The notes under the pieces: generated by a model | What the model saw: only the letters and a program-made list of their open reading frames with translations | Database searches by the model: none | What the model was told of the DNA's origin: nothing | Position numbers and translations under genes: made by a program | NCBI GenBank assembly: GCA_003212295.1 | Contig: QCQC01000002.1 | Location: 1 to 64,000 of the forward strand | DNA length: 64,000 nt | DNA from: Pelagibacteraceae bacterium AG-447-E22 | Lineage (GTDB): Bacteria > Pseudomonadota > Alphaproteobacteria > Pelagibacterales > Pelagibacteraceae | Direction: 5' to 3' | Shown here: positions 23,933 to 59,173 of the stretch, piece after piece | Numbering within the stretch: the first letter of the stretch is position 1 | How the letters are laid out: the number at the start of each line of letters is the position of its first letter

Positions 23933-24193
23933 ATGTCAAAACAAGCACAACACTGGGAAAAAACCAGGGGATTGTTAATGGTTACATTGGCAATTTGGTT
24001 TGTATTCTCAATTGGCATCTTCCTTTTCGGAGCAGAAATGAACGAGGTTACGGGACCATTTGGTTACCCGCTAACTTATTGGTTCACTTGTCAAGGTTCT
24101 CTTGGAATTTTCGTAATCTTAATTTTCTGGTTTGCGAATAGACAGGAAAAAATTGATGAAGAGTTCGGCTTCAGCGAGAGAGGAGACGACTAA
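23933..24193 (+). CDS. DUF4212 domain protein (small subunit of sodium/substrate symporter)
   Basis: WEKTRGLLMVTLAIWFVFSIGIFLFG..MNEVTGPFGYPLTYWFTCQGSLGIFVILIFWFANRQEKIDEEFG; directly upstream of the symporter. Confidence 0.93.
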   Translation: MSKQAQHWEKTRGLLMVTLAIWFVFSIGIFLFGAEMNEVTGPFGYPLTYWFTCQGSLGIFVILIFWFANRQEKIDEEFGFSERGDD

Positions 24194-26004
24194 TGATAAA
24201 AGGTAATTTTATAGACAATTTGCCTAAAGTTTATGGAATCTATACGGGTGGATTTTTAGCTTTCATAATCATTATGGCGATCGCAGAACAAATGGGTATG
24301 TCTGCAAAAGTAATCGGAATTTGTTTCGTTGCTTTTACAGTAGCCATTTATGCGATAATTGGTTGGCTATCACGTACAGCGCAAGCAGATGCGTATTACG
24401 TAGCTGGAAGGCAGGTACCTACAGTATTCAACGGAATGGCAACAGCAGCAGACTGGATGTCTGGTGCATCATTCGTTGCAATGGCTGGTGGTATTTACTT
24501 TAAAGGTTACGGTTATATGGCACTACTTGTTGGTTGGACTGGTGGTTATGTATTAGTTGCATCTTTATTAGCACCATACCTAAGAAAATTTGGCTGTTAC
24601 ACAGTTCCAGATTTTATTGGTACAAGATACGGTGGTAATTTAGCAAGGTTACTTGCGGTAATAGTATTAACTGTTGCTTCATTTACTTATGTGACTGCAC
24701 AAATTAACGCTACAGGTACTATTGCATCTGTTGCTCTTGATATTCCATTCCAATACGCAGTTTATGTTGGATTAGTAAGTATCTTACTATGTTCAATGTT
24801 AGGTGGTATGAGAGGAGTAACTTGGACACAGGTTGCACAATATATCGTACTAATTATAGCTTACTTATTACCAGTATTCTGGATCAGTAACAAAATTGGA
24901 GCGGGATTCTTCCCTCACTTCATGTTAGCTGATGAAGTAGCTAGAATTGGTGATTTAGAACAACAGTTTGGTTTTGTGGCAAACTCGAAAGAGAATCTTG
25001 CTCTTGTACCAAAAGGCTTAGCTGGAATAACTAAAGCTCACTCAGCGGTTAACGCTACACCTTGGGCATTTATTTCATTAGCATTAGCGATGATGATGGG
25101 AACAGCTTCATTACCGCACGTGATGATGAGATATTTCACTACTCCAAGTGTAAAAGCAGCTAGAAAATCAGTAGGTTGGTCATTATTCTTTATCTTCCTA
25201 CTTTATTCTTCTGCTCCAATGTTAGCAACACTGTCTAAGTTGTCATTGATGGACCCTTCTTTACCAACTGGTATTATCGGTAAATCAGTAGCAGATGTTC
25301 AAGCGATAGATTGGTATCAAAACTGGAACCAAGCAAACTTGATGTTTATCAGCGACTTTAACGGAAATGGAACTGTTGAATTAAACGAGTTCTTCATGGG
25401 TGGTAAAGCCGTTGTATTAGCAACTCCAGAAATAGCTGGATTACCATATGTAATCTCAGGTCTAGTTGCTGCTGGTGGTATGGCTGCTGCCATGTCAACA
25501 GCTGATGGTTTGATTCTAGCAATTGCGAATGCTTTATCTCATGACTTGTACTACAAGATCATTGATCCAAAAGCAGAAACTGCAAAACGACTAGTTGTTG
25601 CAAGGGTATTACTTGTAGTAATTGGTTTTGCTGGAGCAACTATTGCGGCTATGGAAATCCAAGGTATCTTAGGTTCAGTTATCTGGGCTTTTGACTTTGC
25701 GATGTCTGGTTTATTCTTCCCACTTGTACTTGGTGTATGGTGGAAGAGAGCTAACAGAGAAGGTGCTATAGCTGGTATGGCTTTAGGATTAATTTCTGGT
25801 GCTGGTTACCTAATTTGGGTAAGAAACGGCGGAAGTGGATTCTTAGGTATTACACAGTTAACGTTTGGTATCTTTGGTTCAGCTGTCAGCTTAGTAGCTA
25901 TGGTAGTAGTAAGTTTAATTACTTCAGAGCCTAATGCTGCAACTCAAAAAATGGTTGATGAGGTTCGTGTACCATCAGGTAGAACGATCCTTGGCAAACA
26001 ATAA
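24193..26004 (+). CDS. Sodium:solute symporter family protein (acetate permease ActP-like, VC_2705 type)
   Basis: AYYVAGRQVPTVFNGMATAADWMSGASFVAMAG, GYMALLVGWTGGYVLVASLLAPYLRKFG, ASLPHVMMRYFT, LVAAGGMAAAMSTADGLILAIANALSHDLYYK. Confidence 0.95.
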   Translation: MIKGNFIDNLPKVYGIYTGGFLAFIIIMAIAEQMGMSAKVIGICFVAFTVAIYAIIGWLSRTAQADAYYVAGRQVPTVFNGMATAADWMSGASFVAMAGGIYFKGYGYMALLVGWTGGYVLVASLLAPYLRKFGCYTVPDFIGTRYGGNLARLLAVIVLTVASFTYVTAQINATGTIASVALDIPFQYAVYVGLVSILLCSMLGGMRGVTWTQVAQYIVLIIAYLLPVFWISNKIGAGFFPHFMLADEVARIGDLEQQFGFVANSKENLALVPKGLAGITKAHSAVNATPWAFISLALAMMMGTASLPHVMMRYFTTPSVKAARKSVGWSLFFIFLLYSSAPMLATLSKLSLMDPSLPTGIIGKSVADVQAIDWYQNWNQANLMFISDFNGNGTVELNEFFMGGKAVVLATPEIAGLPYVISGLVAAGGMAAAMSTADGLILAIANALSHDLYYKIIDPKAETAKRLVVARVLLVVIGFAGATIAAMEIQGILGSVIWAFDFAMSGLFFPLVLGVWWKRANREGAIAGMALGLISGAGYLIWVRNGGSGFLGITQLTFGIFGSAVSLVAMVVVSLITSEPNAATQKMVDEVRVPSGRTILGKQ

Positions 26005-46448: not shown

Positions 46449-47030
46449 TTAATAATTATTTAAATGTTCTTTTATTTTATTTATTGGAAGACCCATTATT
46501 GTATTTTCATCTCCCTCAATATTTGAAAAAAGATTTCTCCCTTCTCCCTCAATTTGATATACGTTATAGGCGTATAAACTCTCGTCTGGTATTTTTTCTA
46601 GATAAGATATTAGGTCTTTTTCATCAAAAGTTTTCATGGTTAAAGTCGCTTTATCAGTATAATTCCATACCATTGAACCATTTTTTGAAATACAAACTGA
46701 ACTGATAAGGTTATGTTTTTTCCCGTTAAGTTTTTTTAAAATAAACAAAGCCTCTTCTCTACTTTCTGGTTTGGAAATTAGTTCACCATTCAAATCAATA
46801 ACACTGTCAGCACCTATTACGATTTTCTCAAGTTTCGTTTGACTAATTTTATTAGCTTTTAATTCTGCAAGATTTTTAGAAATGGTTTCTGGTGTAGCCT
46901 TTTCTTTTATTAAACTTTTTTTAACAATATCTTCGTCAATATTTGAGGGTAAAACACTACAATTTATTCCATTTTTATTTAAAATTTCTTTTCTAACTTT
47001 ACTTTTTGATGCAAGAATTATTTCAATCAT
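46449..47030 (-). CDS. maf: Maf family nucleotide pyrophosphatase
   Basis: IILASKSKVRKEILNKNGI, VIGADSVIDLNGELISKP, YAYNVYQIEGEGRNLFSNIEGDENTIMGLPI. Confidence 0.95.
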   Translation of the reverse strand: MIEIILASKSKVRKEILNKNGINCSVLPSNIDEDIVKKSLIKEKATPETISKNLAELKANKISQTKLEKIVIGADSVIDLNGELISKPESREEALFILKKLNGKKHNLISSVCISKNGSMVWNYTDKATLTMKTFDEKDLISYLEKIPDESLYAYNVYQIEGEGRNLFSNIEGDENTIMGLPINKIKEHLNNY

Positions 47031-47847
47031 TTTTTTTATAAATTTCGTAAATTTTTATTATGGATGCAACTGTTTCTTCTACAGATTTTCTTGTTACATC
47101 AATGACAGGCCATTTATATTTTCTAAAAGTATTTTTGGCTCGATCAACTTCTTTCTTAATATTTTCAAGATTTGTATAATTTTTATTTTCAGATTCTTTA
47201 ATAGAATTCATTCTATTTTTTCTTATATCTGCCAGCCTTTCCGGTTCTGTATTTAAACCAATTACGCACGCCATATTTGGATTATCTTTTAAAGATTTAG
47301 GAATAGAGTTTTCGTCTACTAAAGGTATGTTTGAGGTTTTAAAACCTTTGTTTGCAAGATAGATTGATGTTGGAGTTTTGCTTGTTCTGCTTACACCTAA
47401 AAGAATTATGTCAGATTTATTTAATTCTTTAACTAAATTTCCATCATCATGATTCATTGTAAATTGTATTGCTGCAATTTTCTTATAATATTCTTCGTTT
47501 AATGCGTACTGACCGCTTGGTTGGTGTGAAGCCTTTTGATTCAAAAGTTTTGAAAAGCTTAGTATTAGATCTCCAAGAACACCAAAACATGGAATTTTTT
47601 TATCTTCACTTGTGTTGGCTAAAAATTTTGCCAAATTACTATCAACAATAGAATATAAAATAATTGAATTCGAATTTTTTTCTGCTTCTGACAATATTTT
47701 AAAAATTTGATTTTCTGTTCTTGTAAAAGAATAAGTATGAATTTTATAATCTATATTTTTAAATTGAGCTTTTATAGCTATAAATATTCTATCTAATGTT
47801 TCTCCTGTAGAGTCAGATATAAGATAAATTTGATATGTATTGTTCAT
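47023..47847 (-). CDS. Pyruvate, phosphate dikinase regulatory protein family (kinase/pyrophosphorylase, DUF299)
   Basis: YLISDSTGETLDRIFIAIKAQF, KASHQPSGQYALNEEYYKKIAAIQFTMNHDDG, DIILLGVSRTSKTPTSIYLANKGFKTSNIPLV. Confidence 0.96.
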   Translation of the reverse strand: MNNTYQIYLISDSTGETLDRIFIAIKAQFKNIDYKIHTYSFTRTENQIFKILSEAEKNSNSIILYSIVDSNLAKFLANTSEDKKIPCFGVLGDLILSFSKLLNQKASHQPSGQYALNEEYYKKIAAIQFTMNHDDGNLVKELNKSDIILLGVSRTSKTPTSIYLANKGFKTSNIPLVDENSIPKSLKDNPNMACVIGLNTEPERLADIRKNRMNSIKESENKNYTNLENIKKEVDRAKNTFRKYKWPVIDVTRKSVEETVASIIKIYEIYKKND

Positions 47848-48128
47848 GTATAAACTGTTAACAATATTTTATTATTTAAATCAAATTTTACTAATTTAAT
47901 ATTTTAAAATTTTTGTTGTAAAACCGAAGTTTTATTAACATTATCAAACATCTGTACAATATTTTAGGTAATTTTAAAGAATTGTTAATAAGCTTCAATT
48001 TTTCATATATATTAAATTAATTTAAAACATTAAATGTTAATAAATTGTTTATAAAATGTTCATTAAATTTAATCATCATTATTCACAGGATCTACTAATA
48101 CTACAACCTTATATATTTAATTATTAAT
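47848..48128. other. Putative chromosomal replication origin (oriC)
   Basis: AT-rich noncoding region between ppsR-type gene and hemE; perfect DnaA box TTATTCACA (48079-48087) and three one-mismatch boxes: TTATTAACA (47932-47940), TGTTAATAA (47983-47991), TGTTAATAA (48035-48043). Confidence 0.7.
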
Positions 48129-49130
48129 ATGTCTCCAATTACAGAAGTAATAGTAAATAAAAAAACCAACATTCAACCAGTTTGGATTATGAGACAAGCA
48201 GGCAGATATTTGCCTGAGTTTAGGGAAATTCGAAAAGTTAATACAGATTTTATTAAATTATGTTTAAATGAAAAACTGGCTTCAGAAATAACACTTCAAC
48301 CTTTAAAAAGATTTGAATTAGATGCAGCAATTATTTTTTCAGATATTTTGATGCTCCCATATGGTCTAAATCAAAAGGTTGAATTTAAAAAAAATTTTGG
48401 TCCTTTACTAGGTGACTTAAATTTAGATGAAATTTCTAAAATAGATGAAGTTGACTTTGTTGAAAAAATTTACCCTGTTTATAAAGCCATTAATTTAGTA
48501 AAAAAAAATAAACTTACTAATAATAAAACCATAATAGGTTTTACTGGTGCTCCTTGGACATTACTTGTTTACATGATAAATAAACAATCTCCAAAATTGA
48601 AGCTCAAAGATGATTTTTTTAAAGATGAATTTGTAATAAATCGAATTTTAATAATTCTTGAAAAATTTTTGAAAGTTCATATTAAAAATCAAATAGATAA
48701 TGGAGCTGAGGTAATACAAATTTTTGATAGTTGGGCGGGACTATTAAGTGAGAAAGATCTACCAAATTATATATATATTCCAACTTTAAGTTTAGTTGAT
48801 TACGTTAAGTCTTTAGGAGTGCCTGTAATTTGTTTTCCAAGAGGAATAAAAAATTATAAAAATTATTGTGAAATAGTAAAACCTGATGCAATTTGTATTG
48901 ATTATGATGTTGATCCTATTTTAATTGCTGATCAAATTAATATTCCGATCCAAGGAGGGATGGATCCGAAGATTTTACTATCTGATAAAGAAACTTTAAA
49001 AAAAGAAATAAACAAATATCTCAATATATTTAAACATCATCCATATATATTTAACTTAGGACATGGAATATTACCCGAAACAAAAATAGAAATGATGGAA
49101 TATCTCGTTAAAACAGTAAAAGATTTTTAA
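48129..49130 (+). CDS. hemE: Uroporphyrinogen decarboxylase
   Basis: PVWIMRQAGRYLPEFREIR, LDAAIIFSDILMLPYGLN, GFTGAPWTLLVYMI, QIFDSWAGLL, FNLGHGILPET. Confidence 0.98.
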   Translation: MSPITEVIVNKKTNIQPVWIMRQAGRYLPEFREIRKVNTDFIKLCLNEKLASEITLQPLKRFELDAAIIFSDILMLPYGLNQKVEFKKNFGPLLGDLNLDEISKIDEVDFVEKIYPVYKAINLVKKNKLTNNKTIIGFTGAPWTLLVYMINKQSPKLKLKDDFFKDEFVINRILIILEKFLKVHIKNQIDNGAEVIQIFDSWAGLLSEKDLPNYIYIPTLSLVDYVKSLGVPVICFPRGIKNYKNYCEIVKPDAICIDYDVDPILIADQINIPIQGGMDPKILLSDKETLKKEINKYLNIFKHHPYIFNLGHGILPETKIEMMEYLVKTVKDF

Positions 49131-56890: not shown

Positions 56891-57537
56891 TGGATAATCA
56901 AATATTAAATTCTTACTCTAAATTATCAAACCTGAATGTTTCACGTGAAACTTGTAATGAGCTCGAAACTTTAGTTTCAATGATTCAACAAAAAAATAGA
57001 AAAATTAACATAATAAGCAGAAAAATATCTAAAAAAGAGGAAATAAGAGAGAGACATATCATTGATTCAGCACAAATTATTGATTTTGTTGACTTAAATA
57101 GTAATACAACCTCTGATTTAGGAGCAGGGGGAGGTATGCCAGGCCTAATAGTTGCAATAGTTATGAAAAAAATAAAAAATAATATGAAAATCAATCTGTA
57201 TGAAAAAAGTTATCACAAATGTGCTTTTTTAAAAGAAGTTTCAAAAAAATTAAATTTGAACACTGATATAATTCAAAAAGATATTTTTACGGTTAAAAAT
57301 ATTGAAACAGGAACAGTAATGTCCAGAGCTTTTAAACCTATGCCAGTAATCCTTGATTTGATAAATCAAAATTTCACAAAATATAAGAACATAATTTTGT
57401 TCATGGGAAGTTCAGGAAGAAAAATCTTAAATAACACACTCAAAGAATGGGATATAGATTATGAAGAAAAAAAAAGTTTAACCAATAATGATTCATTTAT
57501 ATTAAATTTAAAACAAATTAGAAAAAAATTTTCATGA
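56890..57537 (+). CDS. rsmG: 16S rRNA (guanine527-N7)-methyltransferase RsmG
   Basis: NVSRETCNELETLVSMIQQKNRKINIISRK, RHIIDSAQIIDF, SDLGAGGGMPGLIVAI. Confidence 0.95.
   Translation: MDNQILNSYSKLSNLNVSRETCNELETLVSMIQQKNRKINIISRKISKKEEIRERHIIDSAQIIDFVDLNSNTTSDLGAGGGMPGLIVAIVMKKIKNNMKINLYEKSYHKCAFLKEVSKKLNLNTDIIQKDIFTVKNIETGTVMSRAFKPMPVILDLINQNFTKYKNIILFMGSSGRKILNNTLKEWDIDYEEKKSLTNNDSFILNLKQIRKKFS
56937..56952. promoter_or_regulatory. parS-like ParB-binding site inside rsmG
   Basis: TGTTTCACGTGAAACT matches the canonical parS TGTTTCACGTGAAACA at 15/16 positions; about 580 bp upstream of parA. Confidence 0.92.
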
Positions 57538-58328
57538 AAATAATATCAATAATAAATCAAAAAGGTGGTGTTGGAAAAACAACTACAGTGATAAATCTTG
57601 CATCAGCATTATCGCAACAAGAAAAAAAAATTTTAGTAATTGATCTAGATCCACAAGGGAATGCAACGACAGGATTAGGGTTATCAAACACAGGACAATC
57701 AGATCAAACCATATATGGAATTTTAAATGGAACAATGTCAATCGCAAATGTTATTAAAAAAACAAAGTTTGAAAATTTAGATCTGATTACGTCTAACGTA
57801 GATTTGTCTGGTCTTGAAGTTGAAACTGCTGGCGATAATGATAGAGCATTCATTTTAAAAGCCAAATTAGCCGCATATTTAAACGATTCTGGAGCTTTTT
57901 ATGATTATATTCTAATAGATTGCCCACCATCATTGAGCTTATTAACTGTAATGGCTCTAGTATCATCAAATTCATTATTAGTCCCACTTCAAACAGAATT
58001 CTTTGCTTTGGAAGGCCTTACTCAACTAATGAAGACTATTGAAAGAATAAAAATTAATTTAAATCCATCGCTTGAGATTCAGGGGATACTTTTAACTATG
58101 TATGATAGAAGAAATAAGTTATCTTCTCAAGTCGAGCAAGAGGCCAGAGGTTACTTTAAAGAAAAAGTTTATCAAACAGTAATTCCAAGAAATGTTAGAT
58201 TATCTGAGGCCCCATCTCATGGCGTTCCAGTCTTAATATATGATAAAAATTGTCCAGGTAGTAAATCATATTATAGTTTTACAGATGAGTTTATTTCTCA
58301 AGAAAACAAAATAGGAAGTGCTGCATAA
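57534..58328 (+). CDS. parA: Chromosome partitioning protein ParA
   Basis: IISIINQKGGVGKTTTVINLASAL (deviant Walker A), VIDLDPQGNATTGLGL, LIDCPPSLSLLTVMAL. Confidence 0.98.
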   Translation: MKIISIINQKGGVGKTTTVINLASALSQQEKKILVIDLDPQGNATTGLGLSNTGQSDQTIYGILNGTMSIANVIKKTKFENLDLITSNVDLSGLEVETAGDNDRAFILKAKLAAYLNDSGAFYDYILIDCPPSLSLLTVMALVSSNSLLVPLQTEFFALEGLTQLMKTIERIKINLNPSLEIQGILLTMYDRRNKLSSQVEQEARGYFKEKVYQTVIPRNVRLSEAPSHGVPVLIYDKNCPGSKSYYSFTDEFISQENKIGSAA

Positions 58329-59173
58329 TGAATTCAAAAATTAAAAAAGGTTTAGGAAGAGGCCTTTCATCTTTAATTGGTGAGACAAAAATTGAAACCC
58401 AAACTAATAAATTGTTATTAAGCGATATAGTTCCAAATAAGTTACAGCCTAGGAAAAATTTTGATGAAGAAAATTTAACTGATCTAACTAATTCAATAAA
58501 AGAACGAGGAGTAATCCAACCTATTATTGTAAGAAAATCAAATTCTGAAAGTTCAAAGTTTGAGATTATAGCTGGTGAAAGAAGATGGTTGGCCGCTAGA
58601 AAAGCTGGTCTCCATGAAATTCCTGTTGTTGTTACTGAGGCAGACGATCTTAAATCCTTAGAATTCGCGATTGTTGAAAATGTTCAAAGACATGATCTCA
58701 ATCCATTGGAAGAAGCATTAGGATATAAACGACTTATAGATGAATTTTCATATGATCAGGAAAAAGTTGCAAAATTTATAGGTAAAAGTAGGAGTTATAT
58801 TACTAATTCTTTAAGACTATTAAACTTACCTGAAGAAGTGTTAAAGTTTTTAGAAGAAAAAAAATTAAGTTCAGGTCACGCAAAAATATTAGTAGGTATG
58901 GATAATGCACTATTTGTTGCAAATAAAATTATTGAAAAGAAATTATCAGTTCGTCAGGCAGAAAATTTTGTTAAAATTTTCAAGAAAAAAAATACTCCCA
59001 ATAAGAATATAAAAGATCCCAATATAAAAAATCTAGAAGTATCGCTATCTGATAAAATTGGGCTTAATGTTGAGATAAGAAATAATAAAAGAAATAAAGG
59101 TACAATTACTTTTTCTTATCATGACATTGATCAACTAAATAAGATAATAGAGGTTATAAAGTCTAATTATTAG
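58328..59173 (+). CDS. parB: Chromosome partitioning protein ParB
   Basis: KKGLGRGLSSLIG, NKLQPRKNFDEENLTDLTNSIKERGVIQPIIVR, EIIAGERRWLAARKAGL, AIVENVQRHDLNPLEEALGY. Confidence 0.98.
   Translation: MNSKIKKGLGRGLSSLIGETKIETQTNKLLLSDIVPNKLQPRKNFDEENLTDLTNSIKERGVIQPIIVRKSNSESSKFEIIAGERRWLAARKAGLHEIPVVVTEADDLKSLEFAIVENVQRHDLNPLEEALGYKRLIDEFSYDQEKVAKFIGKSRSYITNSLRLLNLPEEVLKFLEEKKLSSGHAKILVGMDNALFVANKIIEKKLSVRQAENFVKIFKKKNTPNKNIKDPNIKNLEVSLSDKIGLNVEIRNNKRNKGTITFSYHDIDQLNKIIEVIKSNY

Follow-up and report, generated by a model that had tools for sequence, protein, structure and literature searches.

Members of SAR11 are among the most abundant bacteria in the sea. The window, a stretch of 64,000 nucleotides that comprises the whole of the DNA analyzed here, belongs to contig 2 of a SAR11 assembly of 34 contigs and 800 kb that is 67.7% complete. 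Within it, a ppsR-type gene (COG1806/DUF299; 47023–47847, minus strand) begins at position 47847 and hemE (48129–49130, plus strand) starts at position 48129, leaving an intergenic gap of 281 bp between them (47848–48128). The closest matches to this hemE were found in SAR11 (Pelagibacteraceae) genomes, with identity of up to 81%. The gap is 84.7% AT and thus richer in AT than its surroundings (60–79% AT in the 2-kb bins of the window), although this is a weak pointer to an origin, since intergenic DNA is usually AT-richer anyway. The original prediction had given the length, coordinates and flanking genes of the gap exactly and had called it AT-rich. Elsewhere in the window, GC content rose to 39.6% at 24001–26000, compared with 21–33% in the remainder.

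DnaA boxes and a candidate trio tract

One exact DnaA box, TTATTCACA, lies at 48079–48087 on the plus strand and is referred to below as the anchor box. It is accompanied by three boxes with one mismatch, each reading TTATTAACA, at 47932–47940 (plus strand), 47983–47991 (minus strand) and 48035–48043 (minus strand); the perfect box and these three were confirmed at the positions predicted, and they occur in both orientations. Two weaker boxes on the minus strand carry two mismatches, TTGTTAACA at 47856–47864 and TTATAAACA at 48046–48054, the latter 11 bp from the box at 48035–48043. When the gap was modeled as a first-order Markov chain, 0.43 boxes with at most one mismatch to the consensus (TTATCCACA/TTATTCACA) were expected, against the four observed (P about 0.001). 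The gap is the densest 300-bp box cluster of the window, with no other 300-bp stretch holding as many. Across the window as a whole, TTWTNCACA was not enriched (3 found, 12 expected), so that the unusual feature is the clustering of the boxes and not their window-wide number.

Gap length was 260–285 bp in 77 of 79 relatives, these being the relatives from the hemE search for which both genes lay on the retrieved DNA, and 258–289 bp in further members of the family, including other genera, wherever hemE adjoins. When 78 SAR11 gaps (the window included) were aligned, the most conserved 9-mer of the gap was the box at 47932, followed by the anchor box at 48079 (99th percentile), in a ranking that leaves aside the 9-mers overlapping these two. 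The boxes at 48035 and 47856 were near the 90th percentile (90th and 89th, respectively) and the weak box at 48046 was at the 62nd. Conservation among relatives had been proposed as a check on the four main boxes; it held for those at 47932, 48035 and 48079, and failed for the box at 47983, which ranked at the 24th percentile and is not conserved in relatives. The site at 47856–47864, originally listed only as related to a box, proved to be conserved, reading TTGTTAACA in the window and TTATTAACA in most relatives. Over 125 SAR11 gaps the mean was 3.4 boxes per gap where 0.37 were expected, the sequences being related and the counts therefore not independent. The gap of one single-contig relative, G020, has only two boxes with at most one mismatch and a degenerate anchor box, TAATCCACG, and for this reason the gap is not the place of highest box density in G020.

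Four base pairs past the anchor box TTATTCACA we found a run of four N-A-N trios on the minus strand (48092–48103, 3'-GAT GAT TAT GAT-5'), in the layout described by PMC8287927, whose published search rule is a DnaA box, a spacer of 0–16 bp and at least three N-A-N trios. The A/T-rich stretch that follows it up to hemE (48104–48128) is, judging from its sequence, a candidate unwinding region. In relatives the mean trio run was 3.2, compared with 2.7 in shuffles (sd 0.09), and 45 of 124 runs were shorter than three. Also in relatives, every third column of the tract on the top strand tends to hold an A (p = 0.005), and G makes up 0.4% of the tract compared with 7.4% gap-wide. However, the central A of the trios drifts and at some positions is only weakly conserved, and when information content was tested for a period of 3, the result was not significant (p = 0.54). 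We regard the tract past the anchor box as a candidate DnaA-trio tract that is partly degenerate.

Chromosomal position

As the assembly that holds the window is fragmented and incomplete, GC skew was measured in three single-contig relatives (G020, G015, and G054). Because raw GC skew over 20 kb gave a noisy signal, we turned to GC skew at third codon positions, fitted with gene strand as a covariate on sampled 20-kb stretches. The fit placed the origin on the ppsR side of the gap in every case, at a distance of 16 kb in G020 and of 10 kb in both G015 and G054. The penalty (2 × log-likelihood units, same order of genomes) was 2.8, 0.3, and 1.3 within 2 kb of the gap, 4.9, 1.8, and 1.3 at position 0 of the gap, and 13.2, 7.1, and 7.9 at dnaA; the nominal limit is 3.84, and these values are approximate because neighboring genes are not independent. 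Resolution is in the tens of kilobases, and in G020 the gap falls right on the margin of the supported interval. At that resolution the skew switches at the site in all three relatives, and the switch elsewhere that would have counted against the original prediction was not seen.

In these three genomes dnaA is found on the hemE side, at a distance of about 61–64 kb. No box cluster was found beside dnaA in the two relatives checked, and together with the skew penalty this disfavors a dnaA-proximal origin. A search of the window's own genome for DnaA returned a weak partial match only, so its dnaA probably falls in the missing third of the assembly.

A near-perfect parS-like site, TGTTTCACGTGAAACT (56937–56952), lies within rsmG, 8.8 kb from the gap and 0.6 kb before parA; parA and parB occupy 57534–59173 on the plus strand. 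A parS with at most one mismatch occurs 8–10 kb from the gap in the window, G020 and G015, and no other such match was present in the sampled DNA. In Caulobacter, too, parAB and parS lie near the origin.

Gene neighborhood and alternative explanations

The divergent arrangement of ppsR and hemE about the gap was seen in 29 of 29 class-level loci showing both genes. At two loci, L006 and L009, cargo genes of 1.4–3.4 kb (L006:1354–4726, L009:3346–4697) separate ppsR from the conserved core, which remains beside hemE as 274 or 303 bp with the anchor box kept. Both cargoes include a methyltransferase; that of L009 encodes a LicD-family protein, whereas that of L006 encodes a protein of similar size that matched nothing in Pfam, and additionally a PQQ beta-propeller protein. 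The ppsR frame of L009 stops after 133 aa. In genus g4 (L185 and L186; genomes G005 and G004) the element is adjoined by rho and not by hemE, while box-like sequences and a CTAATA tract remain beside ppsR; in G005 the best match to hemE was located at a distance of about 577 kb. The persistence of the element through both the insertion of cargo and the departure of hemE argues that it would be independent of either flanking gene and not a mere promoter.

These rearrangements bear on whether the gap is instead a shared regulatory region of ppsR and hemE, bound by DnaA as a transcription factor, with the origin elsewhere, for example beside dnaA. Divergent ppsR and hemE do require promoters in the gap, and DnaA is known to double as a transcription factor. 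However, the conserved core keeps its place next to hemE where cargo parts it from ppsR, box-like sites are retained beside ppsR in g4 although the best hemE match is so distant, and the region beside dnaA is disfavored as described above; we therefore consider this explanation very unlikely. An origin outside the gap yet within about 10–50 kb of it, as the skew optima 10–16 kb away on the ppsR side might suggest, is less probable still, since in each of the three genomes the approximate support range includes the gap or has it at its margin, the window holds no second 300-bp segment that is as box-rich, and the flanking genes are ordered as at Cori (PMC1914354).

Taken with its box cluster, conservation, skew switch, synteny and nearby parS, the gap is very probably the chromosomal oriC of the SAR11 cell, at which we infer that replication would initiate. 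The original prediction that it is the chromosomal origin is thus supported by skew, box conservation and the gene order of Caulobacter. In the steps that we propose, DnaA would bind the anchor box (48079–48087), aided by the boxes at 47856, 47932, 48035, and 48046, and the oligomer would then extend onto the bottom-strand trinucleotide tract starting at 48092. Melting would follow in the A/T-rich DNA that precedes hemE, helicase would load and forks would leave both ways, after which ParB on the nearby parS may segregate the new origins. Among the papers searched, we found none placing the SAR11 origin by sequence or stating the junction rule for SAR11. Metagenomic growth estimates depend on origin-to-terminus coverage, and a defined origin would give them a second anchor, the SAR11 terminus having been fixed from coverage minima in one study (PMC9589681).

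Comparison with known origins

The SAR11 case is one of the known alphaproteobacterial hemE/COG1806 junction, the general rule for which is already published: it has been described for Caulobacter, where the origin was mapped experimentally, and for Rickettsia (PMC1914354). The SAR11 gap shares with Caulobacter Cori and Rickettsia oriC the flanking genes, found here family- and class-wide, an AT-rich gap, and multiple boxes in both orientations, here clustered beyond chance. It is shorter than the oriC of R. prowazekii (281 bp vs. 384 bp) and, unlike the Caulobacter and Rickettsia origins, has no IHF consensus and no GANTC. A single TTAA-N7-TTAA site is present, unremarkable in such AT-rich DNA, so that CtrA and IHF sites of the Caulobacter type are not a feature of the gap.

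Also in contrast to Caulobacter, the CtrA regulator was not found in the three single-contig relatives. Each encodes four OmpR-family DNA-binding regulators; four representatives were scanned, among which one was identified as PhoB, none came near the NCBIfam CtrA cut-off, and the sole representative listing the CtrA family scored 120.6 of 350 bits. This agrees with a report that no ctrA was found in Pelagibacter (PMC2877005), and the origin is apparently without CtrA control. CtrA sites are not needed for this origin type, as they are missing in E. ruminantium (PMC1914354). The box map offers a small target for testing how a CtrA-less bacterium times initiation. All three genomes also encode, close to the origin, a short OmpR-type DNA-binding protein of 185–189 aa (L272 in G054, L273 in G020, and L274 in G015), which is located on the hemE side at a distance of about 17–20 kb. 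A scan of L274 gave no NCBIfam family match at E 1e-20.

A more tentative suggestion, which we hold to be possible though not probable, is that the SAR11 origin is a compact, CtrA-free, DnaA-timed autonomous module, staying when hemE leaves and tolerating cargo on one of its sides, and that its trio code is a variant conserving the terminal T over the central A. Unlike the B. subtilis-type system, the SAR11 gap has one anchor box with no clear tandem pair, and across relatives the last T of each trio is more strongly conserved than its central A. The candidate tract in the window has four N-A-N trios in a row, three of them 3'-GAT-5', and the order of box, 4-bp spacer, candidate trios and A/T-rich DNA is likewise that of the basal unwinding system of Bacillus subtilis and others (PMC8287927).
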